Source of the DNA: Flavobacteriales bacterium
GTDB lineage: Bacteria > Bacteroidota > Bacteroidia > Flavobacteriales_E > Vicingaceae
Length of the DNA: 64,000 bases
Assembly: GCA_013359255.1 (NCBI GenBank)
Contig: JABWCF010000003.1
Span: 124,001-188,000, forward strand
Reading direction: 5' to 3'
Shown here: positions 30,176 through 42,837 of the stretch, piece after piece
Position numbering within the stretch: position 1 is the first letter of the stretch
Layout of the letters: every line of letters starts with the position of its first letter
Notes under the pieces: generated by a model
What the model was told of the DNA's origin: nothing
What the model saw: only the letters and a program-made list of their open reading frames with translations
Databases searched by the model: none
Position numbers and translations under genes: made by a program

Positions 30176-32056
30176 ATGGATACAGCACAAGAACAAGTTG
30201 CGGGTAACAAAGTAAATTTTATTGATACAGAAAATGTAGTAATAAGATTTTCGGGTGACTCTGGCGATGGAATGCAACTTACCGGAACACAGTTTTCGGA
30301 CACATCGGCTTTTTTTGGAAATGATATTTGTACATTCCCCGATTACCCATCTGAAATACGTGCTCCAGCCGGCACTATTGCCGGGGTTTCCGGTTTTCAA
30401 ATTCAATTTGGGAGTAAGGAAATAAACACTCCGGGCGATTCGTACGATGTGTTGGTAGCTATGAATGCCGCTGCATTAAAAGTAGAATTGAAAAATGTAA
30501 AAAAAGGAGGTGTAATAATTGCCAACATAGCCGGATTCGATAAAAAAAGTTTGCGTTTAGCTCAATATTCCGATGAAGCAGATCCGCTTAAAGACGGGTC
30601 TCTATCTGATTATAAGGTTTTAGAAATAGACATTACAAAGCACACTAAAGAAAGTTTAAGCGGCACCAATCTTGGTAACAAGGAAGTGGAGCGTGCAAAA
30701 AACATGTTTATATTGGGCTTAATTTATTGGATGTTTGACAGACCCACTGAGCATACTGAAACCTTTATAAAAGAAAAATTTGGCAAGAAGCCCGATATTG
30801 CCGAGGGAAATATTTTAGCCTTACAAGCCGGATGGAATTATGGCGAGAACACTGAGGTATTTACCAGTCGTTACCGGGTAGCCTCAGCCGAATTGGCAAA
30901 AGGCGATTACAGAAGTATTACAGGAAACCATGCCGCAGCTATTGCATTAATTGCCGCAGCTAAAAAAGCAGGTATTCCATTATTTTTAGGCTCATACCCG
31001 ATAACACCTGCAACCGACATTTTACACGATCTTTCTAAATATAAAGCACACGGAGTAAAAACATTTCAGGCCGAAGATGAAATTGGAGGAATTTGCTCTT
31101 CTATTGGAGCCTCTTACACAGGGCATTTAGCCGCAACTACTACATCCGGACCCGGGCTTTCTTTAAAAATTGAAGCCCTAGGTTTAGCTACTATTTTAGA
31201 AATTCCGTTGGTGGTTATTAATGTGCAAAGAGGAGGACCTTCTACCGGTTTGCCCACCAAAACAGAACAAGCCGATTTATTACAAGCCATGTATTGCCGA
31301 CACGGAGAAGCACCGCTACCAGTAATTGCAGCAGCCTCTCCCTCCGATTGTTTCGATACTGTATTTGAGGCAGCTCGTATAGCACTGGAACACATGACTC
31401 CTATTATTTGCCTTACCGATGGATATATTGCAAATGGCTCTGAGCCTTGGAGATACCCTACAGAAGCAGCTTTGCCAACTATTAAAGTACATTTTGCTTC
31501 GAAAGAAGAATGGAAAGAGGGGCCTTATTTACCCTATAAACGAGATGAAAAACTTTCTCGTCCTTGGGCAATACCAGGCACACCAGGCTTAGAACACAGA
31601 ATAGGGGGACTAGAACGCAAACACGAAACGGGTCATCCGAGCCACGACCCCGAAAACCATGAATTTATGGTAAAACTAAGACAGCAAAAAATAGATAAAA
31701 TTGCAGATTATATCCCCGAACAAAAAGTGAACTTCGGAAAAGAATCTGGAAAATTGGCTGTTTTAACATGGGGTTCAACCTATGGCACCGTGCGTAACTC
31801 TCTAATTGAAATGAGTAAAGAAGGGAAAGAAGTTTCACATATCCATTTACGTTATTTAAACCCTTTTCCAAAAAATTTAGAAGCCGTACTAAGAAAATTT
31901 GATAAAATTCTTATTCCCGAAATGAACAACGGACAACTATCCGTTTTAATACGTTCTAAGTACCTTATTCCTGCCATCTCATTAAACAAAATTAAAGGAG
32001 TACCATTTTCTGCCGATGAAATAAAAGCAAAAGTAAACGAACTATTAAACAACTAA
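30176..32056 (+). CDS. korA: 2-oxoacid:ferredoxin oxidoreductase, alpha subunit (fused gamma-alpha)
   Basis: This 626-residue subunit has an N-terminal gamma domain (about 15-195, starting VIRFSGDSGDGMQLTGTQFS). The alpha pyrimidine-binding domain follows (FLGSYPITPATDILHDLSK, TTSGPGLSLKIEALGLA, NVQRGGPSTGLPTKTEQADL), then the C-terminal transketolase-like domain. With KorB it oxidises 2-oxoglutarate (most likely) or a related 2-oxoacid to the acyl-CoA and reduces ferredoxin. It is divergent from nuoA across a shared regulatory region. KorB follows 4 nt downstream. Substrate assignment to 2-oxoglutarate rests on family resemblance. Confidence 0.92.
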   Translation: MDTAQEQVAGNKVNFIDTENVVIRFSGDSGDGMQLTGTQFSDTSAFFGNDICTFPDYPSEIRAPAGTIAGVSGFQIQFGSKEINTPGDSYDVLVAMNAAALKVELKNVKKGGVIIANIAGFDKKSLRLAQYSDEADPLKDGSLSDYKVLEIDITKHTKESLSGTNLGNKEVERAKNMFILGLIYWMFDRPTEHTETFIKEKFGKKPDIAEGNILALQAGWNYGENTEVFTSRYRVASAELAKGDYRSITGNHAAAIALIAAAKKAGIPLFLGSYPITPATDILHDLSKYKAHGVKTFQAEDEIGGICSSIGASYTGHLAATTTSGPGLSLKIEALGLATILEIPLVVINVQRGGPSTGLPTKTEQADLLQAMYCRHGEAPLPVIAAASPSDCFDTVFEAARIALEHMTPIICLTDGYIANGSEPWRYPTEAALPTIKVHFASKEEWKEGPYLPYKRDEKLSRPWAIPGTPGLEHRIGGLERKHETGHPSHDPENHEFMVKLRQQKIDKIADYIPEQKVNFGKESGKLAVLTWGSTYGTVRNSLIEMSKEGKEVSHIHLRYLNPFPKNLEAVLRKFDKILIPEMNNGQLSVLIRSKYLIPAISLNKIKGVPFSADEIKAKVNELLNN

Positions 32057-32060
32057 TCCC

Positions 32061-33092
32061 ATGATAACAACCAGCGAAAATAAATTAACCGCTAAAGATT
32101 TTGTTCCCGACCAAGATGTAAAATGGTGCCCCGGGTGCGGTGATTATTCTATATTGAAACAAGTGCAAACTATTTTTCCTGATTTAGGTATTCCTCGCGA
32201 AAATTTTGTATTCATCTCCGGAATAGGATGCTCTTCTCGTTTTACTTACTATATGGAAACATATGGAATGCACAGTATTCACGGAAGAGCCGGAATCATT
32301 GCATCAGGTGTAAAATCGGCCAACCCTAATTTAAGCGTTTGGGTTGTTTCGGGCGATGGAGATTCAACCGCCATAGGTGGCAATCATTTTATCCATTTAA
32401 TGCGAAGAAATTTAGATTTAAATTACCTGATGTTTAACAACCAAATTTATTCGCTTACCAAAGGACAATATTCACCCACTTCCGAAAAAGGAAAAATCAC
32501 AAAATCTACCCCTTTTGGCACTATTGAAGCTCCTTTCAATCCGGCCGAGTTAGCTTTAGGAGCAAATGCAAGTTTTGTTTCCAGAACCTTGGACAGAGAC
32601 CCAAAACATATGCAGGCTATCTTAAAAAAAGCCAACCAGCACAAAGGAACTTCATTTGTTGAAGTTTATCAAAACTGCCCCATCTTTAACGATGGAGCCT
32701 TCTTTGCATATTCCGATAAAGAAACCAAAAAAGAAGAAGCAATCTATGTTGAAAATGGCCAACCCTTAATTTATGGTGAAAACAACGGTAAAGGAATTAA
32801 ACTAAATGGCCTTACCCCTGAAATAGTTGATTTAACAGCATCTGGAATCAGTGCAAACGATCTTTGGATACACAACGAAAAAGACAAAACAAAAGCTAAT
32901 TTACTTGCCAGAATGTTTGATGCTGTTGTGCCTGATGTACATTTTCCGCGTCCATTTGGAGTGCTTTTTGCTGAGGAACGTCCTGTATACGAGGAAATGA
33001 TGCAATCTCAAATTGAAAATGCAAAAGCAAAAAAAGGAGAACCTAGTTTAGACTCTATTCTTTCGGGTGATAAAACCTGGACAATTAACTAA
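32061..33092 (+). CDS. korB: 2-oxoacid:ferredoxin oxidoreductase, beta subunit
   Basis: This 343-residue TPP-binding subunit has VKWCPGCGDYSILKQVQ, GIGCSSRFTYYMETYGMHS and the TPP/Mg motif GDGDSTAIGGNHFIHLMRRN. The Cys in VYQNCPIFNDGAFF completes, with the CxxC and GIGC cysteines, the ligands of the single [4Fe-4S] cluster. Reduced ferredoxin leaves this subunit. No separate delta (ferredoxin-like) subunit is encoded here, so an external ferredoxin is needed; one is encoded at the end of the divergent nuo operon. Confidence 0.93.
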   Translation: MITTSENKLTAKDFVPDQDVKWCPGCGDYSILKQVQTIFPDLGIPRENFVFISGIGCSSRFTYYMETYGMHSIHGRAGIIASGVKSANPNLSVWVVSGDGDSTAIGGNHFIHLMRRNLDLNYLMFNNQIYSLTKGQYSPTSEKGKITKSTPFGTIEAPFNPAELALGANASFVSRTLDRDPKHMQAILKKANQHKGTSFVEVYQNCPIFNDGAFFAYSDKETKKEEAIYVENGQPLIYGENNGKGIKLNGLTPEIVDLTASGISANDLWIHNEKDKTKANLLARMFDAVVPDVHFPRPFGVLFAEERPVYEEMMQSQIENAKAKKGEPSLDSILSGDKTWTIN

Positions 33093-34128: not shown

Positions 34129-34833
34129 ATGAACCGACAAAGATTGCTATGTGCCGACTGTAAGGCCCCGTGCTTAATGAAAGGAATTAACGACCTAGAA
34201 GCCGTTAAAAAAGTGGAAGAAAAAAAAACTGTACTAGTTTGCTCCAAAAATCAAAAAATATTTCATGAAGATATGCCCGTAAATAGTATCAGCTTTATCA
34301 ATTCGGGTATCATAAAAGTGTATAAAACCGGGATAAACGGTAAAAATCATATTATCCGTTTCTCTAGAGCCGGGGATATACTTGGGCATAGAGGATTAAA
34401 CACAGAATATTATCCGGTATCAGCATCTTCCATCGAAGATTCTTCCATTTGCCTTTTCCCTAAGGATTTCTTCATCACTTTTTTGGGAAATCATTCACGC
34501 ATTGCATTTAAGTTATTAATGTTTTTTTCTAAAGAATTAGAGAACTCAGAAATAATGCAATTTAATTTGGCACAAATGAATGTGCGTGAAAAGGTGGCTG
34601 AAACTTTGTTATACCTAAATACTACTTTTGGTACAGATAAAAACAATCGATTAAATATTACTCTTTCAAGGCAGGATTTTTCCGATTACGCAGGTACCAC
34701 CAAAGAACAGGTGTCAAAAATTCTTTCAGAATTTCAATCAGAAAACCTGATTCTATTAGATAAAAAAGACATCATTATCAATGAACTTAACGAGTTGAAA
34801 AAAATAGCATCATTTGGCGTTCATCTTTCTTAA
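34129..34833 (+). CDS. Crp/Fnr family transcriptional regulator, likely controlling the denitrification island
   Basis: This 234-residue regulator has a cyclic-nucleotide-binding-type beta domain (about 35-150) and a C-terminal winged HTH. The recognition helix TTKEQVSKILSEF has Glu-x2-Ser-Lys where FNR has Glu-x2-Ser-Arg, the residues that read TGA half-sites. The N-terminus has C8-x2-C11-x3-C15 and a fourth Cys at 38. The spacing differs from E. coli FNR but could hold an iron-sulfur cluster or act as a redox sensor. It sits directly upstream of the NO-reductase operon. TGA-N6-TCA boxes occur at four promoters in this window. The signal sensed (O2, NO or redox) is unknown. Confidence 0.9.
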   Translation: MNRQRLLCADCKAPCLMKGINDLEAVKKVEEKKTVLVCSKNQKIFHEDMPVNSISFINSGIIKVYKTGINGKNHIIRFSRAGDILGHRGLNTEYYPVSASSIEDSSICLFPKDFFITFLGNHSRIAFKLLMFFSKELENSEIMQFNLAQMNVREKVAETLLYLNTTFGTDKNNRLNITLSRQDFSDYAGTTKEQVSKILSEFQSENLILLDKKDIIINELNELKKIASFGVHLS

Positions 34834-34947: not shown

Positions 34948-35121
34948 ATGAGCGAAGAAAATCAATCAACCACTTTTCTTGAATCCTTGCTGAATAATAT
35001 GTGGCTGCTCCTCATTTTGGGAGTAGGCGTATATTTTGTTTCCTACATATTTTGGGGTTGGGCAGAAATTATACTCATAAAGGGTATTCCTGCAGAAATA
35101 AAAGATTTATTTACCAAATAA
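34948..35121 (+). CDS. Small single-TM protein, first gene of the NO-reductase/heme-copper operon
   Basis: This 57-residue protein has one hydrophobic segment (NMWLLLILGVGVYFVSYIFW, about 17-36) and a short charged tail. The ATG at 34948 (MSEENQSTTF) fits the operon better than the open frame from 34906, which would start too close to the promoter. I do not recognise a named family. Size and position resemble accessory subunits of B-type heme-copper enzymes (subunit IIa) or an assembly factor. The next gene starts 12 nt downstream. Confidence 0.75.
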   Translation: MSEENQSTTFLESLLNNMWLLLILGVGVYFVSYIFWGWAEIILIKGIPAEIKDLFTK

Positions 35122-35133
35122 AAAAATAGAGAT

Positions 35134-35694
35134 ATGAGTTTAGAAGCACCCCCTTCCGGATGGATACACAAGAAAATAGCTCGCGATGAAAAAGGTTGGA
35201 TTATTGCGGCAACCGTAGTGTGTATTGCTATGTTCTTTTGGATGATTTTGTGGCACGTATACGGAAAACAAAATCCATCGAGTGTTACTTATTACACTAC
35301 CCCAGAGGAGTTTACAACACTTACCAACTCGTTTATTGAACAAAATCAAATTGGCGAAGACAACGGAATACCGGTTGTTATGCCCAAACCTGAATCTGAT
35401 GTTTTTCTTCTGGCACAGATGTGGCGTTGGTCTTCGGTTATCGTATTAAAAAAAGATGAGTGGTATAAATTCCATATATCATCGAAAGATGTGATGCACG
35501 GATTTTCGGTACAGCCCATCAATATGAATTTTATGGTTTTTCCCAACTACGATTACGTGTTAGATTTTAAGCCCAATAAAACAGGTGAATACATGGTAGT
35601 GTGCAACGAATTCTGCGGCATAGGACACCATTTGATGATTGGAAAAATTGTAGTTATTGAAGATGAAAGCGAATTAGCTAATTACGGATATTAA
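35134..35694 (+). CDS. CuA-containing subunit II of a heme-copper oxidoreductase (putative NO reductase)
   Basis: This 186-residue protein has one N-terminal TM helix (about 22-43) and a periplasmic cupredoxin domain. All CuA ligands are visible: H122 in DVMHGFSVQ, then C157-x3-C161-x3-H165-x2-M168 with the bridging Glu159 (VVCNEFCGIGHHLMIG). It accepts electrons from a soluble or lipid-anchored cytochrome c or cupredoxin and passes them to subunit I. Only one TM helix is present, as in B-type (ba3-like) enzymes. It precedes subunit I by 11 nt. Confidence 0.9.
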   Translation: MSLEAPPSGWIHKKIARDEKGWIIAATVVCIAMFFWMILWHVYGKQNPSSVTYYTTPEEFTTLTNSFIEQNQIGEDNGIPVVMPKPESDVFLLAQMWRWSSVIVLKKDEWYKFHISSKDVMHGFSVQPINMNFMVFPNYDYVLDFKPNKTGEYMVVCNEFCGIGHHLMIGKIVVIEDESELANYGY

Positions 35695-35705
35695 TATTAT
35701 ATATT

Positions 35706-37385
35706 ATGAGCACTTTTAGAACATGTGATATAACAGGCTTTAAAGTAGATAATACTACTGAAAAATTGTTTCGATTAAATGCAGTTTTTGCTGTAGTTTC
35801 TTTACTTATTGCCGCATTAGGAGCTATACTCCTTGTATTTACACGTTGGCAAGATTTTCATGTATTATCCTCTCCTTGGTATTACAGAATAATTGGCTTA
35901 CACGGTGTAAACGCATTGGTATTTTGGATTGTGTTTTTTGAAATTGCGGGTCTTTACTTTGGTTCAACAGTGGTTTTAAATTCTAGGTTTTGTGCTCCCA
36001 AGTTAGGGTGGCTGTCGTTTATATTAATGGCCACCGGCTTTATTCTTACCGATGTAATGATACTAAGTGGTAACGCAGATGTAACAATGACATCGTATGT
36101 TCCGCTGAAAGCACACCCACTTTATTACCTAGGTATAATACTTTTTGCCGTTGGAGCTCTTATAGGTGTAGGTTTGTTTTTTGGCAATATTGCTCTGGCA
36201 AAAAAAGAAGGGAAAGTAGGAAAAACCCTACCCTTATTTACTTATGCACTAATGGCAGCAGCGATTATTGCTGTATTAACATTGCTTTCCGGAGCATTGG
36301 TTTATGTGCCTACTTTTTTATGGTCGTTGGGTTTGGTAGAAAGCATAGACCCCGCTTGGTATCGCTTGGTTTGGTGGGGCTTTGGGCACTCGGCACAACA
36401 AATAAATGTGTGTGCCATGGTAGGAATCTGGTATCTATCGGTACGTTTGGTTTTAGGCGGAAGTTCCATTAATGAAAAGGTTTCGAGGGTGGCGTTCTTA
36501 TTCTATATTCTTTTTATAAGTATTGCTTCGGCTCACCATCTATTAGTTGACCCTGCAGTAAGTTCAACTTGGAAAGTGTGGAATACCAGTTATGCCATGT
36601 ACCTTGCGGTGCTTGCTTCGATGATTCATGCCTTTGCCGTTCCCTCTTCTATGGAGGCTGCTCAAAGAAGGTTAGGACATAACAAAGGCTTGTTCGATTG
36701 GCTCATTAAATTACCATGGGGAAATCCTGCATTTAGTTCTATTACGCTTGCCATCATTGGTTTTGGTTTTATTGGCGGAATTACAGGCGTAATATATGGT
36801 ATGGAACAAACCAATATTATTGTGCATAATACATTGGCTATTGTGGGGCACTTTAAAGGAACCGTGGTAATTGGAACTACCTTAACCTTTATGGGTATTA
36901 CATACTATTTAGTTCCTCTAATGTTTCGAAGAAAGATTGTTGCCTTTAAACTGGCAAAAATTCAACCATGGATGTTCTTTTTTGGCATTGCATTATTAGC
37001 CATCGGAATGATTGCATTGGGAATGTTTGGCATTCCCAGAAGACATTATGATATTGCGTTTACCGGAGGTCCCTTTACATATGATTTTAATCTTGTTTCA
37101 GGTTTTATTTGGGTTCTATTTGGTTTGGGCGGAGTACTCTCTTTTTTATCCATGCTCATTTGGATATTAATTGTTGTTGTTTCGGTATTTTTTGGTCCTA
37201 GGGTAAACGGTCCGCAAGATATGCAACTTGCCATAGCTGCTCCTCTTGGAGAAGAAAGGACTCCACATAAACGCAAATATGAGGCTCCCGGAACATTGGT
37301 GCTAACTATTATTTTTCTTGTTACATTCTTGGTGTTTTATTTCTTGAATTGGAAGTGGCTTGCTGCGATTTGGGAAATTCAGTAG
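35706..37385 (+). CDS. Heme-copper oxidoreductase subunit I without the catalytic tyrosine; probable CuA-type nitric oxide reductase
   Basis: This 559-residue protein has about 14 TM helices. The high-spin heme and CuB histidines are present: H228 (WWGFGHSAQQ), H277/H278 (SIASAHHLLVDPA) and H382 (LAIVGHFKG). H66 in GLHGVN is the helix II low-spin heme ligand. Two key residues differ from oxygen reductases. The position four after H228, where the cross-linked Tyr of B-type oxidases lies, is Gln232. The second His of the helix X HxH pair is Lys384. Loss of the Tyr is known in heme-copper enzymes that reduce NO rather than O2. The FNR-like box and nearby nirS support an NO reductase. Its exact family (sNOR, eNOR, gNOR or other) cannot be fixed by eye. 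Confidence 0.85.
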   Translation: MSTFRTCDITGFKVDNTTEKLFRLNAVFAVVSLLIAALGAILLVFTRWQDFHVLSSPWYYRIIGLHGVNALVFWIVFFEIAGLYFGSTVVLNSRFCAPKLGWLSFILMATGFILTDVMILSGNADVTMTSYVPLKAHPLYYLGIILFAVGALIGVGLFFGNIALAKKEGKVGKTLPLFTYALMAAAIIAVLTLLSGALVYVPTFLWSLGLVESIDPAWYRLVWWGFGHSAQQINVCAMVGIWYLSVRLVLGGSSINEKVSRVAFLFYILFISIASAHHLLVDPAVSSTWKVWNTSYAMYLAVLASMIHAFAVPSSMEAAQRRLGHNKGLFDWLIKLPWGNPAFSSITLAIIGFGFIGGITGVIYGMEQTNIIVHNTLAIVGHFKGTVVIGTTLTFMGITYYLVPLMFRRKIVAFKLAKIQPWMFFFGIALLAIGMIALGMFGIPRRHYDIAFTGGPFTYDFNLVSGFIWVLFGLGGVLSFLSMLIWILIVVVSVFFGPRVNGPQDMQLAIAAPLGEERTPHKRKYEAPGTLVLTIIFLVTFLVFYFLNWKWLAAIWEIQ

Positions 37386-37394
37386 AAACAGAAA

Positions 37395-38282
37395 ATGTTT
37401 TCGTTAAATAATATGTTGAATAGATTGAGCGTAAAACTTCGGGATTACGCTCAATTAGTTAAATTTCGTTTGTCATTGCTTGTAGTGTTCTCTGCATCTA
37501 TGTCGTACTTGTGGGCAGTAAACAGAAATATTGATTTTGTAACGATATGGTTACTCTCGGTGGGCGGATTTTTTATTGCAGGAGCTTCTAATATTTTTAA
37601 CCAGATACTAGAAATAAAGTCAGATGCATTGATGCAACGTACCTCAGAAAGACCTCTCCCTTCCTCCAGATTAGAAATTAGAGAAGCGGTTATCCTTGGG
37701 ATGATATTTTCTGTTCTGGGTCTTTTGCTTTTATCGAAAATTAATTTGCTTTCGTTTGTATTGGGATGCTTAGCATTGTTGGTGTATGTGTGTATCTATA
37801 CACCTTTAAAAAAAATTACGTGGCTCACGGTAATCCCCGGAGCCTTTGCCGGTTCTTTGCCGGTATTAATTGGTTGTACAGCTGCTACAGGCTCTGTTTC
37901 CAATCATGCAGTACTTTTGTTTTTAGTGCAATTTGTTTGGCAGTTTCCACATACATGGTCTATTGCCTGGCTTCTGAATGATGATTATAATAGAGCCGGA
38001 TTTAAAATGTTGCCAACTCCCGGAATAAAATCCAAATACGCATCAATGTTAATTATGTTTTCCACTTTTTTAATTGTACCAACTGCTTTACTTTTGTACA
38101 TGTACGAGTCGATTGGAGTACACGTTTCGTGGATTATTTCTTTATTTGGAGGCCTATTGTTTCTTAGCTCAATTATTTTTTACAGAGCACGAACCGAAAA
38201 ATCGGCACTTGCATTAATGTTGGGTTGCATTATTTTTTTGCCGGTTTTATTTATTCTTTTAGTTGCAGAAAAATTTATATGA
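37395..38282 (+). CDS. ctaB: Protoheme IX farnesyltransferase (heme O synthase)
   Basis: This 295-residue UbiA-family prenyltransferase has about nine TM helices. The first Asp-rich motif region reads NIFNQILEIKSDALMQRTS followed by ERPLPS, and the second region AWLLNDDYNRAGFKMLPT. It adds a farnesyl tail to heme B to give heme O, and with CtaA (not seen here) heme A. Its place within the operon implies that subunit I uses a farnesylated heme, as expected for an oxidase-derived enzyme. The start could be ATG 37395 or MLNRLSVK a few codons later. The next gene overlaps its stop by 4 nt. Confidence 0.92.
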   Translation: MFSLNNMLNRLSVKLRDYAQLVKFRLSLLVVFSASMSYLWAVNRNIDFVTIWLLSVGGFFIAGASNIFNQILEIKSDALMQRTSERPLPSSRLEIREAVILGMIFSVLGLLLLSKINLLSFVLGCLALLVYVCIYTPLKKITWLTVIPGAFAGSLPVLIGCTAATGSVSNHAVLLFLVQFVWQFPHTWSIAWLLNDDYNRAGFKMLPTPGIKSKYASMLIMFSTFLIVPTALLLYMYESIGVHVSWIISLFGGLLFLSSIIFYRARTEKSALALMLGCIIFLPVLFILLVAEKFI

Positions 38283-39055
38283 GTTTGCACTTCCATCATA
38301 AAAAAATAAGATGTATCCTTTTGATGCCCTTTTTATGCTTGTTCTATAATTCATTATATTCACAACGAGACCCAAACGAGACCAAGTTTTTGGGAAAGCA
38401 ATTAGCAGATATAGAAGTGTTCGATTCCAAAAACAACAGAAATAAGCTATCTGAATTAATAAAAGATAGGCCTATCATTTTAAGTCCTATCTACACCAAA
38501 TGTCCCAGCTCATGCTCCATTATTACAGCCAACTTAAAAGAGGCCATCAAAAAAAGTAAAGGAATGGGAAAAGAGTATGAGGTGTTAACTTTTTCTTTCG
38601 ATTACTACGACACCCCTAAAGATTTAAAAACATTTACTAAACGATGGGATATTACCGGAGAAAGTTGGAAAGTGGTGGCTTCCGATAAAGAAAGCACTTC
38701 GCAACTTTTATCTTCAATAGATTTTGAAATTATAAAAGAAAAATCGGGCGATTATTTGCATCCGAATGTACTAGTAGTAATAACCCCTAAAATGAAAATA
38801 TCTCGCTTTGTGTACGGTGTTTTTCCAAGTGCCCGCGATATTGATATGGCCGTACTGGAAGCAAAAAAAGAAAAAACATCGCTTAGTTTTTACGAAGGCT
38901 TTTTGTTGAATTGTTTCAAGTTCGATGCAACATCAAAAAAATATATTATCGACTGGGCATTTATAATTCAAATTTGCGTAGGTATTTTTTTTATATCGGG
39001 ATTATTATTTTTTGTTATAAGAGATTTATTTTTTAAAGATTTGAGAACATTATAG
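38279..39055 (+). CDS. SCO1/SenC family copper-delivery protein with C-terminal anchor
   Basis: This 258-residue protein of the thioredoxin fold has the copper-binding CxxxC in YTKCPSSCSII and the distal His in YLHPNVLVV. It has an N-terminal signal peptide (about 1-30) and, unusually placed, a C-terminal TM helix (about 227-249, FIIQICVGIFFISGLLFFVI) with a basic tail. SCO proteins load the CuA centre of subunit II. The ATG at 38279 overlaps the ctaB stop (ATGA). The frame is open further upstream, but that part reads through the ctaB end. Confidence 0.88.
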   Translation: MSLHFHHKKIRCILLMPFLCLFYNSLYSQRDPNETKFLGKQLADIEVFDSKNNRNKLSELIKDRPIILSPIYTKCPSSCSIITANLKEAIKKSKGMGKEYEVLTFSFDYYDTPKDLKTFTKRWDITGESWKVVASDKESTSQLLSSIDFEIIKEKSGDYLHPNVLVVITPKMKISRFVYGVFPSARDIDMAVLEAKKEKTSLSFYEGFLLNCFKFDATSKKYIIDWAFIIQICVGIFFISGLLFFVIRDLFFKDLRTL

Positions 39056-39134: not shown

Positions 39135-41030
39135 ATGAGTGGACACAGCATTTTTTTAAAAATAGGAGCGTTTTTCAGCAGAATTTTCTCTACAAAGTAC
39201 AATCCAGTATACCATTTGGGCACCTTAGCCATTTACTTTTTTGCCATAGCATTTGTATCGGGCATTTATCTTTTCTTGTTTTATAAAGTAGATCCCACTC
39301 AATCGTACATATCTACTGTAGAACTTACCAATCAATGGGCTGGTAACCTAATGCGCAACCTACATCGTTACTCGTCTGATTTATTTGTAGTATTTGTTTT
39401 TTTTCATTTTTTACACATGCTTATTACAGGCAAATTTAAGCGAGTAAAATCGTGGTTATTTGGAATTGTATCGTTAATAATTACCATTTTTATAGGCTTA
39501 ACAGGATTTGTTTTGGTATGGGACCAAAAGGCAAAATTATTGGGCGTATTAACAGCAAAACTGTTAATCTATTTACCCTTTTTCGACCCTTCAATTGCCG
39601 GAGCCTTTTTAATAAACGATTTGGCATACCTTGGTGGCATTTTTAGAGTAACCCTTTTTGGGCATATTTTCTTTTGTGCATTTACCGCTATATTTCTATG
39701 GTTGCACGAAATTCATTTAAGTAAGCCGGGTATTTTCCCTCCTAAAAAAATAATGCTTTTTTCCGGCTTTTTCATTTTACTTATTTCTTTGTTTTTTGAT
39801 GCCTCATTAGATGCTCCGGCACAAGATACCGTATTACCAACAGAAACAGGATTTAACTGGTATTACTTTTTTGGGTATTTTTTTATGAAAATACTTTCCG
39901 TTGGCTGGAACTGGGTTTTGATTTTAATTGTTACTCTGTTTATTTTCTCTTTTCCATTCCTATTTAAGAAAAACAAAAATTACATTCCAGTTATCAATGC
40001 CGATTTATGCGATGGTTGCCAGCAGTGTGCCGAAGACTGCCCCTACGATTCCATTCTGATTAAACAAAACGAAAAAGGCGAAGATAAAGCTTGGTTAGAT
40101 AACGAGAAATGTGTTGGGTGTAATATCTGTGTTGGCTCATGTAAATCGATGGCCATAACCTCAGAAAAAATAGTACCCAATTTAATCAATAGTGCCGGAA
40201 ATACTCAGCACCACATTATTACTTGTAGCTATTTAAAAAGCAAGTTAAACGGATTGGATTTACAGAATACAAAAATATCGGAGGCAATTTGTGTAGGAAA
40301 TATTAATGCGAAAGCGTTTGATGAAACATTGGTTTCTGAAAAAAATAAATTGGTGATTTTGGGCTGTGAATCGTGCTATTATCGTTTCGGACCCGAGTGG
40401 GCTAAAAACCGATTAAACCATAAACGCAGGCCAGTAATAAAATCTTCGGTTAATTACAGTAACATACTTTTTGTAACATCGGGGCAGAATATTAAAAAAA
40501 CAATTTCCGATTTTATAAATAATGCAAATGTTAGCTCAAACAAAAAAGAACTTACCGTAAAAGATTTTTCAAAAGTCAATATAGCATTTGCCATTTTATT
40601 GAGTGCTTTATTCTTTGTCTCTATTCCATATTTTAGCAATCAAAAACTTTCTTTTTACTCTTCAAAAAGCAGAACGCTTGTTTTAAATTTGAAATATACA
40701 TCTTCTCCAATACACGAGTTGCAAAATAACTCATCACATCTTTCACACATGCAATCACCTGTACCCATTATCAGCGGAAGGTCGGAAATAAAAATAGAGG
40801 TATTCAACACAAAAAACAATGAATTGGTGTTTTCAAAAAACTACAGCCCGAGAGGTATTCGTAAAGATATTGCCGTGTATGTTTACGATGAAGTAGAAGT
40901 TCCCGAAAATATAAAAATTATTCTATCCGAAACAGAGTTTCCGGAAATTAAACACGAACTCTCAAACATTCAATTAATGAAAGGGGAAAGCAGAGTACTC
41001 CGCTTTCTTTCAGGTAAACTTACATTATAA
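39135..41030 (+). CDS. Cytochrome b / 2[4Fe-4S] ferredoxin / FlpD-like fusion membrane protein
   Basis: This 631-residue multidomain redox protein starts with an N-terminal cytochrome b core (about 20-275) whose bis-His pairs are H77-x13-H91 and H177-x13-H191. A cytoplasmic 2[4Fe-4S] domain follows (C292, C295, C298, C302; C326, C329, C332, C336). Residues 350-450 contain C364, C386 and C411-x2-C414 in LVILGCESCYYRFGPEWAKN and resemble the FlpD/MvhD hydrogenase iron-sulfur subunit domain. A further TM helix lies at about 481-500 and a C-terminal beta-rich periplasmic domain at about 505-631. It could move electrons between cytoplasmic ferredoxin-like donors and quinone or periplasmic acceptors. 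It lies between the NO-reductase operon and nirS; function is inferred only. Confidence 0.82.
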   Translation: MSGHSIFLKIGAFFSRIFSTKYNPVYHLGTLAIYFFAIAFVSGIYLFLFYKVDPTQSYISTVELTNQWAGNLMRNLHRYSSDLFVVFVFFHFLHMLITGKFKRVKSWLFGIVSLIITIFIGLTGFVLVWDQKAKLLGVLTAKLLIYLPFFDPSIAGAFLINDLAYLGGIFRVTLFGHIFFCAFTAIFLWLHEIHLSKPGIFPPKKIMLFSGFFILLISLFFDASLDAPAQDTVLPTETGFNWYYFFGYFFMKILSVGWNWVLILIVTLFIFSFPFLFKKNKNYIPVINADLCDGCQQCAEDCPYDSILIKQNEKGEDKAWLDNEKCVGCNICVGSCKSMAITSEKIVPNLINSAGNTQHHIITCSYLKSKLNGLDLQNTKISEAICVGNINAKAFDETLVSEKNKLVILGCESCYYRFGPEWAKNRLNHKRRPVIKSSVNYSNILFVTSGQNIKKTISDFINNANVSSNKKELTVKDFSKVNIAFAILLSALFFVSIPYFSNQKLSFYSSKSRTLVLNLKYTSSPIHELQNNSSHLSHMQSPVPIISGRSEIKIEVFNTKNNELVFSKNYSPRGIRKDIAVYVYDEVEVPENIKIILSETEFPEIKHELSNIQLMKGESRVLRFLSGKLTL

Positions 41031-41175: not shown

Positions 41176-42837
41176 ATGAACACAAAATTTAAAACAAATC
41201 TTCACTACATGGCGGTAGCATCAATAGTGGTGCTCTCCTCTTGTGGTGGCTCTGGAGAAGAAAAAAAAGTTGAAACCGAACAACCAAAAACAGAAGGTAT
41301 TCTGCTAACAACAGCCGAAATGGAGAAAGCTTCTAATATTTATTTTGATAAATGTGCAGGTTGCCACGGATCTGCACGTAAAGGAGCAACAGGCCCACAC
41401 CTTTTACCCGAAGCACCCGAAGGCAGCCCTGCTCCAGGAACAAAAACATTGGGCGAAGCCGGTCTCAGAGCTTTTATAGAAAACGGAACACCAGGTGGTA
41501 TGCCCGAATGGAAAGGGATTATGACAGATGACGAGATTACTTTAATGACTAAATTTTTGCAACTAGACCCTCCTGCCATTCCTGCGTTCGGTTTGGAAGA
41601 GATGAAAGCCACTTGGAAAGTTTTTGTTCCTGTAGCTGATAGACCCGCCAAGCCTGTTCATAAGAGGAATATAGACAACTATTTTGGTGTTATTATGCGA
41701 GATGCCGGAAAAGTAGCCGTAATTGATGGCGATACCAAGGAAGCATTAGCCGTTTTACCAACAGGATTTGCCGTACATATTCTCCGCACATCAGCATCAG
41801 GAAGGTATATATACTCTGTAGGAAGAGACGGAAGAATTACTATGATTGATACTTACAGCGAAAAACCCACCATTGTTGCCGAGGTAAGAGGAGCCTACGA
41901 TGCCCGCTCAGTTGAAGTTTCTAAGTTTAAAGGGTACGAAGATAAATACCTTGTGTTTGGCGGTTACAATCCCGCCCATATAGCTATTTTCGATGCACAA
42001 ACGCTAGAACCTATCAGCGTTACCTCTACCTCCGGAAATGCTTGTGATGGAGAAAAAGAATTTGTAGAAGAAGCTCGTGTAGCTTCTATTGTAGCTTCGC
42101 ACACCGATCCCGTTTGGATTTGCAACATCAAAGAAAGAGGAATGGTAGATATTGTGGACTATTCTGATCCAAAAAATCCAAAAGTAACAGAAATTGCTTC
42201 TGCACGCTTTTTACACGATGGGGGCTGGGATGCTACCGGAAAATACTTCTTGGTTGCCGCCAACGCCAGTAACAAAGTAGTAGTAATTGATGTGCCTAAT
42301 AAAAAATTAGTTACTATGATTGAAACAGGCATTAAACCCCACCCCGGAAGAGGAGCAAACATTAAAAACAAACTCGGAAGTTTATGGATAACCAGCCACC
42401 TTGGTGAAAATAAAATTTCATTCATTAAAACGAATCCGGGCGAAGGACAGTGGACTGTTGTTAAAGAAATACAAGCCCCAGGAAATGGTGGTGGTGCTCT
42501 ATTTGTAAAAACACACCCAAAATCTAAACATCTTTGGGTAGATAGAACTCTTAATCCTGATGCTTCTTTACATTCTAAAATTGATGTTTTTAATGTAGAA
42601 ACTCTTGAACATAAAAAAACCATTGATATGCCTGAAGGGGTTGACGGAAGAATGGTACACATGGAATACAATAAAGCAGGTGATGAATTATGGGTATCCG
42701 TTTTTATGGGCAAAACAAGCGGTATTTTAATTTATAATGATAAAACATTAGAATTAAAACAAATCATTAAAGGAGATTGGGTACAAAACCCTACTGGCAA
42801 GTTTAATATTTACAATACTACACATGACATCTATTAG
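41176..42837 (+). CDS. nirS: Cytochrome cd1 nitrite reductase (NO-forming), lipoprotein form
   Basis: This 553-residue enzyme reduces nitrite to NO in the periplasm. The N-terminal domain holds heme c (C60-A-G-C63-H64, likely distal Met109 in GGMPEW). The eight-bladed propeller binds heme d1: proximal His201 (FAVHILRTSASGRYIYSVG) and active-site His347 (ARFLHDGGWDATGKYF) and His389 (KPHPGRGAN). Spacing is almost that of the Pseudomonas enzyme, and the end FNIYNTTHDIY is the NirS signature. Both active-site histidines and the C-terminus argue against NirN or NirF. The signal peptide ends in a lipobox (VVLSSC, Cys23), so it is probably membrane-anchored. No heme d1 synthesis gene is nearby. It has its own promoter and terminator. 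Confidence 0.95.
   Translation: MNTKFKTNLHYMAVASIVVLSSCGGSGEEKKVETEQPKTEGILLTTAEMEKASNIYFDKCAGCHGSARKGATGPHLLPEAPEGSPAPGTKTLGEAGLRAFIENGTPGGMPEWKGIMTDDEITLMTKFLQLDPPAIPAFGLEEMKATWKVFVPVADRPAKPVHKRNIDNYFGVIMRDAGKVAVIDGDTKEALAVLPTGFAVHILRTSASGRYIYSVGRDGRITMIDTYSEKPTIVAEVRGAYDARSVEVSKFKGYEDKYLVFGGYNPAHIAIFDAQTLEPISVTSTSGNACDGEKEFVEEARVASIVASHTDPVWICNIKERGMVDIVDYSDPKNPKVTEIASARFLHDGGWDATGKYFLVAANASNKVVVIDVPNKKLVTMIETGIKPHPGRGANIKNKLGSLWITSHLGENKISFIKTNPGEGQWTVVKEIQAPGNGGGALFVKTHPKSKHLWVDRTLNPDASLHSKIDVFNVETLEHKKTIDMPEGVDGRMVHMEYNKAGDELWVSVFMGKTSGILIYNDKTLELKQIIKGDWVQNPTGKFNIYNTTHDIY

Follow-up and report, generated by a model that had tools for sequence, protein, structure and literature searches.

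A cytochrome b–ferredoxin–FlpD fusion protein as a near-constant accessory of one eNOR clade

The eNOR operon and the domains of the fusion protein

The window, by which we mean the whole 64,000-nucleotide stretch of Flavobacteriales DNA analysed here, carries a run of genes on its forward strand in the order CuA subunit, eNOR subunit I, heme o synthase, SCO, fusion protein and nirS. A regulator of the Crp/Fnr family (34129–34833; PF00027 and PF13545) lies upstream of the operon, as a Crp-like gene does in many Bacteroidota loci, and is followed by an ORF of 57 aa with a single transmembrane helix (34948–35121, picked out by script), a candidate small subunit of the enzyme. Subunit II (35134–35694) is a CuA cupredoxin with the ligand motif CNEFCGIGHHLM, as judged by PF00116 (1.3e-6) and alignment. 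Subunit I (35706–37385) belongs to the heme-copper family (PF00115, 2.5e-63) and contains the motif GHSAQQ, with Gln in place of Tyr; the same site reads GHPEVY in the oxidase-type COX1 of the window genome. Replacement of the cross-linking Tyr by Gln in subunit I is described as the mark of eNOR (PMC8756737), and on the basis of this Gln and the cupredoxin subunit II encoded upstream, the partner enzyme is read from sequence as an eNOR. Next come a CtaB/CyoE heme o synthase (37395–38282; TIGR01473, 219.5 bits against a cut-off of 210.3), an SCO1/SenC family protein (38279–39055; PF02630, 9.7e-7) and, from an ATG start, the 631-aa fusion protein (39135–41030). The nirS gene for cytochrome cd1 nitrite reductase (41176–42837; PF02239, 2.5e-111) is a neighbour outside the conserved unit. 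The preliminary description had placed the fusion gene between an NO reductase operon and nirS, which is correct, the operon being of the eNOR type.

Short ORFs similar to the 57-aa ORF precede the CuA gene at four other loci (L024, L027, L039 and L042), and a 60-aa "hypothetical protein" before the CuA gene on a Defluviimonas plasmid resembles it as well. When a loose script rule was applied, which chance ORFs also pass, some short ORF turned up before the CuA gene at 44 of 67 loci. A search of the whole window for Fnr-type boxes gave 49 matches against 55 expected by chance, i.e., no enrichment, and an Fnr-type box before the operon was discarded as evidence on this ground. Further upstream (30176–33092, forward strand), two genes read by eye like a 2-oxoacid:ferredoxin oxidoreductase pair, which might be a source of reduced ferredoxin.

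The fusion protein begins with a cytochrome b core (residues 17–203; 39183–39743) recognised by Pfam, PDB search and alignment. Pfam Cytochrome_B matched residues 17–133 (1.9e-13), the closest PDB relatives are cytochrome b6 (4.3e-18), and the alignment with some PDB cytochrome b chains reaches residue 281. Conservation was assessed in alignment A2, which holds the window protein and its relatives from 58 of 80 named loci (59 rows). The four His residues predicted as heme ligands, H77, H91, H177 and H191, are invariant in all 59 rows, in agreement with the bis-His core proposed at the outset. Residues 204–276 (39744–39962) form two further transmembrane helices, by alignment and hydropathy, and bear a PEWY-like motif, which reads D-W-[FY]-Y in almost all family members and N241-W-Y-Y in the window; position 241 is Asp in 58 of the 59 rows and Asn in the window protein. 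W129, D130 and Y244 occur in every row.

A 2[4Fe-4S] ferredoxin follows (residues 284–340; 39984–40154), with C292, C295, C298 and C302 for one motif and C326, C329, C332 and C336 for the other. Pfam places the 4Fe-4S motifs at residues 285–338, and the eight cluster Cys residues noted earlier are retained in 59/59 rows. Residues 343–462 (40161–40520) were assigned as a FlpD/MvhD domain on PF02662, profile and alignment evidence. The window protein alone gave no match to PF02662 at E 0.1, so this check failed for the single sequence, but 57 of the 59 family members matched at 0.01 (best 8.7e-18), which bears out the FlpD/MvhD-like module that had been suggested. Likewise, a two-sequence alignment of the domain found no match in the PDB, whereas a 21-row profile of residues 343–462 matched six MvhD-type PDB chains (5.9e-12 to 1.3e-4), most strongly 9sw2_D (5.9e-12) and 5odc_D (2.3e-10). 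The NCBIfam model of HdrA2 aligned, through its ferredoxin and C-terminal part, to residues 282–464. The putative ligand pair C411-x2-C414 proved only partly constant, as C411 is found in 59/59 rows and C414 in 53/59; the set also includes C364 and C386, both present in every row.

A single transmembrane helix near residues 483–501 (40581–40637), predicted from hydropathy in agreement with the preliminary description, leads to a tail domain (residues 502–631; 40638–41027; tail profile and alignment) that is presumably periplasmic. By hydropathy and by analogy with cytochrome b, the ferredoxin and FlpD domains would face the cytosol and the tail the periplasm. None of the 25 best NCBIfam models listed for the window protein reached its cut-off, nor did any listed for three other family members scanned. 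The single fusion ORF is real: a full-length relative with 42% identity was found in another family, and others in other phyla, and since the domain order recurs in this way, it is not a chance arrangement.

The tail is an independent protein. It is present at all 80 loci, fused at 57 and encoded at the other 23 by a separate gene, of about 167 aa wherever its start could be placed clearly, directly after a shortened main gene; the tail profile used comprised 25 sequences, 24 of them from the loci then searched. In an alignment of the window tail with those of 33 of the 80 loci (A3, 34 rows), no Pfam family matched consistently (20 families, each in a single row), and the PDB offered nothing better than E 0.079. 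Comparison by hhalign with six FixG_C sequences (probability 1.2, 18 columns; profile only) and with ten CtaG sequences (probability 0.1, 11 columns) led us to reject FixG_C and CtaG/Cox11 as identities of the tail. A Met residue, M539 in the window, is conserved in 30/34 rows and preceded by His in 16 and Asn in 14, and half of the tails (17/34) have at least two Cys residues. This Met/His/Cys pattern would be compatible with a metal site and makes a weak case for copper binding.

Association with one clade of eNOR

As the 80 named loci were chosen as the best of 335 relatives from named genomes, the sample is biased towards close relatives. Taxon names were taken over from the records, most of them MAGs, which cover Bacteroidota, Kapaibacterium, several Pseudomonadota, Balneolaceae, Verrucomicrobia, Planctomycetota, Calditrichota, Aquificota and archaea. 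We looked for neighbours in the flanks, i.e., within the fetched stretch of up to 10 kb per side. Among these best 80 of 335, eNOR subunit I was found in the flank at 72 loci, at 70 of which it lies upstream, on the same strand and no more than 5 kb from the fusion gene, and the CuA gene at 71. All 72 subunits I have the motif GH..QQ. SCO was detected at 76/80 loci (73 by phmmer and three by a CxxxCP motif rule) and CtaB at 15/80. The expectation that the gene is linked to nitrogen-oxide genes elsewhere thus held for eNOR and SCO but not for nirS, which lies in the flank of only 9/80 loci and was rejected as a functional partner on that count. On the Defluviimonas plasmid, from the cultured environmental denitrifier Defluviimonas sp. 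SAOS-178_SWC, the eNOR set and the fusion gene form one compact block, annotated as hypothetical protein, oxidase subunit I, heme o synthase, SCO, "cytochrome b N-terminal domain-containing protein", hypothetical protein and hemerythrin.

The upstream sequence is shorter than 2 kb at seven of the eight loci without subunit I in the flank, and at the eighth (L085) the gene is unlinked; a whole-genome search recovered eNOR in five of the eight, L085 included, and not in the other three. Tree distances of the fusion protein, subunit I, CuA subunit and SCO correlated at 0.95–0.98 over 66 loci, and those of the fusion protein with the other three at 0.97–0.98, a comparison made with no control gene.

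The gene clusters contain several further recurrent features. A second COX1-like protein, mostly of 420–500 aa, recurs in eNOR clusters (L016 4357–5811, L019 4218–5639, L064 6145–7428, L087, L212 938–2338 and L214 11740–13077), and a motif script returned ten weak COX1-like hits in the 80 loci, nine without the scanned GH motif and one with GHVTFS. In proteobacterial eNOR clusters, a hemerythrin-family gene follows the tail gene (L084, L088, L089, L097, L098 and L150); the one in L150 (16089–16493) is annotated as hemerythrin family, and the other five merely read like hemerythrin. In an Aquificota MAG (L064, 2052–19449), the fusion gene stands between a block of eNOR, SCO and two nirS-like genes and a run resembling nosZ-D-F-Y-L. 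A contig labelled Bathyarchaeota (L065) has the gene run of this Aquificota contig, probably through a binning error.

We found a close correspondence at the level of whole genomes, for which thresholds differed between searches (1e-20, 1e-30 and 1e-60). In 395 genomes of the window's phylum, searched at 1e-20 for the fusion protein and 1e-60 for eNOR subunit I, nine carried the fusion protein and 16 carried subunit I. Nine eNORs share 50% identity or more with the window's subunit I, and they come from exactly the nine genomes that have the fusion protein. The remainder belong to a second clade, also of the Gln type, with 42–44% identity, and the fusion protein occurs in none of its seven genomes. 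Four second-clade eNORs whose CuA subunit was read retain the CuA ligands. Neither SCO nor CtaB was found in the surroundings of four of the seven, which were searched by tblastn with the window's own sequences as the only queries. Three second-clade loci (L131 10619–11437, L132 11660–12460 and L134 8081–8851) have a third gene, encoding about 256–272 aa with several hydrophobic stretches, that was not seen in a fourth (L133).

A similar pattern was obtained in 369 gammaproteobacterial genomes, where 32 had both proteins, one eNOR only, two the fusion protein only and 334 neither (Fisher test, 1.4e-42, not corrected for relatedness). Thus, 32 of the 33 genomes with eNOR (47–51% identity to the window's) have the fusion protein, and 32 of the 34 with the fusion protein have eNOR; three hits near 1e-31 that covered only cytochrome b were left out of the 34. 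The three misfits are all at contig ends: one contig stops 24 bases after subunit I (G751), one ends inside SCO (G702) and one inside subunit I (G746). In 26 of the 32 genomes with both, the genes share a contig within about 5 kb, and in the other six they are on different contigs or 13–16 kb apart. The second hits of two genomes (G692 and G755) resemble parts of a single gene split over two contigs. Taken together, these data identify the fusion protein as a near-constant accessory of one eNOR clade, and the interpretation shifts accordingly from nitrite respiration, as proposed in the preliminary description, to this role.

Electron input and the proposed function

Two gammaproteobacterial paralogs retain the cytochrome b core and carry NAD(P)H flavin-reductase modules in place of ferredoxin–FlpD: a flavodoxin–FAD–NADPH reductase (diflavin) module in one (L211, genome G643), and a Fer2–FAD–NAD reductase module in the other (L213, genome G569). 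The PEWY-like motif D-W-[FY]-Y could also be read in both. The diflavin paralog sits inside the eNOR cluster of its genome, and the eNOR cluster of another genome (G829) contains a third cytochrome b truncated by the contig end. Close to the Fer2–FAD paralog (16095–18677 of L213) are genes resembling those of a [NiFe] hydrogenase. Modules of the flavin-reductase kind usually serve as entry points for electrons from NAD(P)H. Because the paralogs carry such modules and every Fe-S domain of the fusion protein comes after the final cytochrome b helix, the simplest explanation is that the shared core passes cytosolic electrons outwards, and entry from the cytosol is probable. The family shows one cytochrome b scaffold with exchangeable cytosolic input modules, namely ferredoxin–FlpD, NADPH diflavin and Fer2–FAD–NAD.

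The host genomes appear to have other routes by which electrons could reach eNOR. An NrfD-family protein was detected in 11/11 genomes tested that carry the fusion gene, and the window genome has a gene run reading as a full Alternative Complex III (ACIII) operon. A quinol-to-cytochrome c route independent of the fusion protein is therefore probably present. Furthermore, of the 71 CuA subunits, 40 are longer than 280 aa, and a CxxCH heme c motif is found in every one of these 40, so that cytochrome c input is built into them. CxxCH is absent from all 59 main rows and 34 tail rows of the fusion family, which thus has no heme c exit of the kind usual in quinol:cytochrome c reductases. No Rieske match was obtained in five of the 11 genomes (G000, G001, G072, G246 and G210, with the window genome among them), and the matches in the other six are on other contigs or far away. 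Besides the fusion protein, seven of the 11 genomes encode FixG_C proteins above the cut-off, probably CcoG. Since a norC–norB pair (cNOR) seems to be present beside eNOR, the window genome may hold two NO reductases; the apparent cNOR (L135 4810–6572) and the ACIII operon adjoining narI/narJ-like genes (L137 2375–10492) were noted on other stretches of this genome. The roles first offered for the fusion protein, quinone reductase or direct electron entry into nitrite respiration, are not supported as they were stated, in view of the NrfD proteins and the ACIII-like operon.

We tentatively prefer, at somewhat less than even confidence, the hypothesis that the fusion protein is an eNOR-dedicated reductase operating from cytosol to periplasm, most likely for metal loading. 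On this view, electrons would be taken up in the cytosol by a [2Fe-2S] site in FlpD and by the pair of [4Fe-4S] clusters, pass through the membrane by way of both b hemes and emerge on the periplasmic side, where an acceptor would be held or docked by the tail. The most likely acceptor would be the metal being loaded into eNOR: Cu(II), reduced to Cu(I) for SCO and the CuA site, or the active-site metal. The mode of action would resemble that of the cupric reductase CcoG and, in part, that of NosR. SCO and CtaB are assembly factors. Their recurrence as neighbours, together with the precedents of CcoG, NosR and CrpH compared below, favours metal loading, as does the probable supply of eNOR by cytochrome c without the fusion protein.

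Several observations speak against metal loading. The near-invariant Asp of D-W-[FY]-Y suggests a quinone site. The tail lacks profile similarity to FixG_C or CtaG/Cox11, as far as such comparisons can tell, and the adjacency of SCO also fits simple co-transcription with a copper enzyme. The second COX1-like protein and the hemerythrin, likewise recurrent neighbours, are not assembly factors. The FixG_C proteins coexist with the fusion protein in 7/11 genomes, and eNOR and the gene are on different contigs or 13–16 kb apart in 6/32 gammaproteobacterial genomes. Copper loading does not always depend on the gene, because the four second-clade eNORs whose CuA subunit was read keep the CuA ligands without it.

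The chief rival, which we consider possible and clearly less probable than metal loading, is catalytic electron supply: electrons from a cytosolic ferredoxin or flavoprotein would pass through FlpD, ferredoxin and b hemes to the CuA subunit during NO reduction, as a NosR-like bypass of the cytochrome c pool. Its constant association with both eNOR subunits, the paralogs with NAD(P)H reductase modules and the description of NosR, in the parts of the literature drawn on here, as an electron donor to the CuA enzyme NosZ are all consistent with it. The CxxCH motifs of the long CuA subunits, the NrfD-family genes in every genome tested and the second eNOR clade, which does without the fusion protein, argue against such a donor.

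A third and rather unlikely explanation is a quinol dehydrogenase or quinone reductase, in which a P-side Qo-like site would link the menaquinone pool with eNOR or a cytosolic ferredoxin. The cytochrome b6 chains as best PDB relatives and the conservation of W129, D130, Y244 and D241 agree with this role; the missing or distant Rieske proteins, the lack of CxxCH, the change of the PEWY Glu to Asp (Asn in the window) and the probable presence of other quinol routes do not. Far less probable still is an NO-driven, electron-bifurcating quinol oxidase, in which menaquinol would be oxidised at the P-side D-W-[FY]-Y site and its electrons split, one going to the CuA subunit and the second being driven across the two b hemes as far as FlpD and the [4Fe-4S] clusters in the cytosol. 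The family possesses the sites that this would require, with Asn at the key position of the window copy, and if this were true, NO reduction would yield a low-potential reductant. Lastly, an ordinary hydrogenase- or Hdr-type electron input, placed beside NOR genes by chance in a few genomes, is hardly credible: its FlpD and ferredoxin domains are those of MvhD/HdrA and one paralog is near hydrogenase-like genes, but chance is contradicted by the near-complete co-occurrence with eNOR and disfavoured by the correlated tree distances, albeit with no control gene.

eNOR has been described as a two-subunit enzyme (PMC8756737) and, in the literature drawn on here, is regarded as capable of energy conservation through a proton channel. 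The fusion protein, as a third membrane redox component that is near-constant in one clade and has a tail partner of its own, alters the set of proteins whose expression may be required for an active enzyme. The fusion gene is also a marker separating the two eNOR clades, and the supply of copper or electrons to eNOR is now open to direct test.

Comparison with known systems

The two bis-His sites in helices B and D of cytochrome b in bc1 and b6f complexes are present in the fusion protein; the Glu of PEWY in the ef loop is not, no Rieske partner is encoded nearby in the 11 genomes, and this assignment was rejected. Of the MvhD/FlpD and HdrA2 proteins, HdrA2 shows in its C-terminal part both the FlpD domain and its placing behind a two-cluster ferredoxin; the fusion protein differs in that it shows no match to the remaining HdrA2, its FlpD part being attached to a cytochrome b. 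Of the b-type cytochrome proteins ExtP and ExtQ, ExtP (NCBIfam NF040969) aligns to the first helices of the family and ExtQ (NF040970) to the next two, but these models, of 205 and 134 positions, leave no room for ferredoxin and FlpD, and the window protein, at 86.8 bits against a cut-off of 290, was rejected as an ExtP equivalog.

In the literature covered, which leaves aside the 2024 PNAS survey of the NOR family, the only mention of such an operon partner is a table entry in PMC8756737. This entry, RME88945.1 in Table A3, describes one ORF with cytochrome b6, DMSOR-beta-like and FlpD domains (PMC8756737). As known here from the table, it differs from the fusion protein in being listed for an additional C1 cytochrome c domain.

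The closest parallels to the proposed function are membrane electron-transfer proteins that serve heme-copper and CuA enzymes. Membership of the CcoG/NosR/NapH family itself was rejected, as the membrane part of the fusion protein is Cytochrome_B and NapH models match only the ferredoxin (residues 283–344; 25–27 bits against cut-offs of 213–234). CcoG, the cupric reductase of cbb3 oxidase assembly, has been described as a membrane protein that has two clusters, ends in a domain on the periplasmic side and is encoded in the cbb3 cluster (PMC7558416). CcoG/RdxA/FixG proteins resemble the fusion protein, according to the descriptions used here, in being membrane proteins with two tetranuclear Fe-S clusters encoded in the gene cluster of a heme-copper enzyme, and their C-terminal periplasmic Ig-like domain would be the counterpart of its tail. 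Unlike CcoG, the fusion protein has a cytochrome b core with two b hemes and an extra FlpD domain, and its tail is unrelated to FixG_C by profile comparison. NosR is reported as electron donor and activator of the N2O reductase NosZ (PMC8951191, PMC5928378); as described there, it is likewise a polytopic membrane protein with a cytoplasmic ferredoxin-like domain and two [4Fe-4S] clusters, and it serves a periplasmic CuA enzyme of denitrification. NosR differs in its periplasmic FMN domain, and the fusion protein in its b hemes, FlpD domain and unnamed tail. A further precedent is CrpH, presented as a heme-bearing candidate copper reductase for heme-copper enzymes (PMC13038864).
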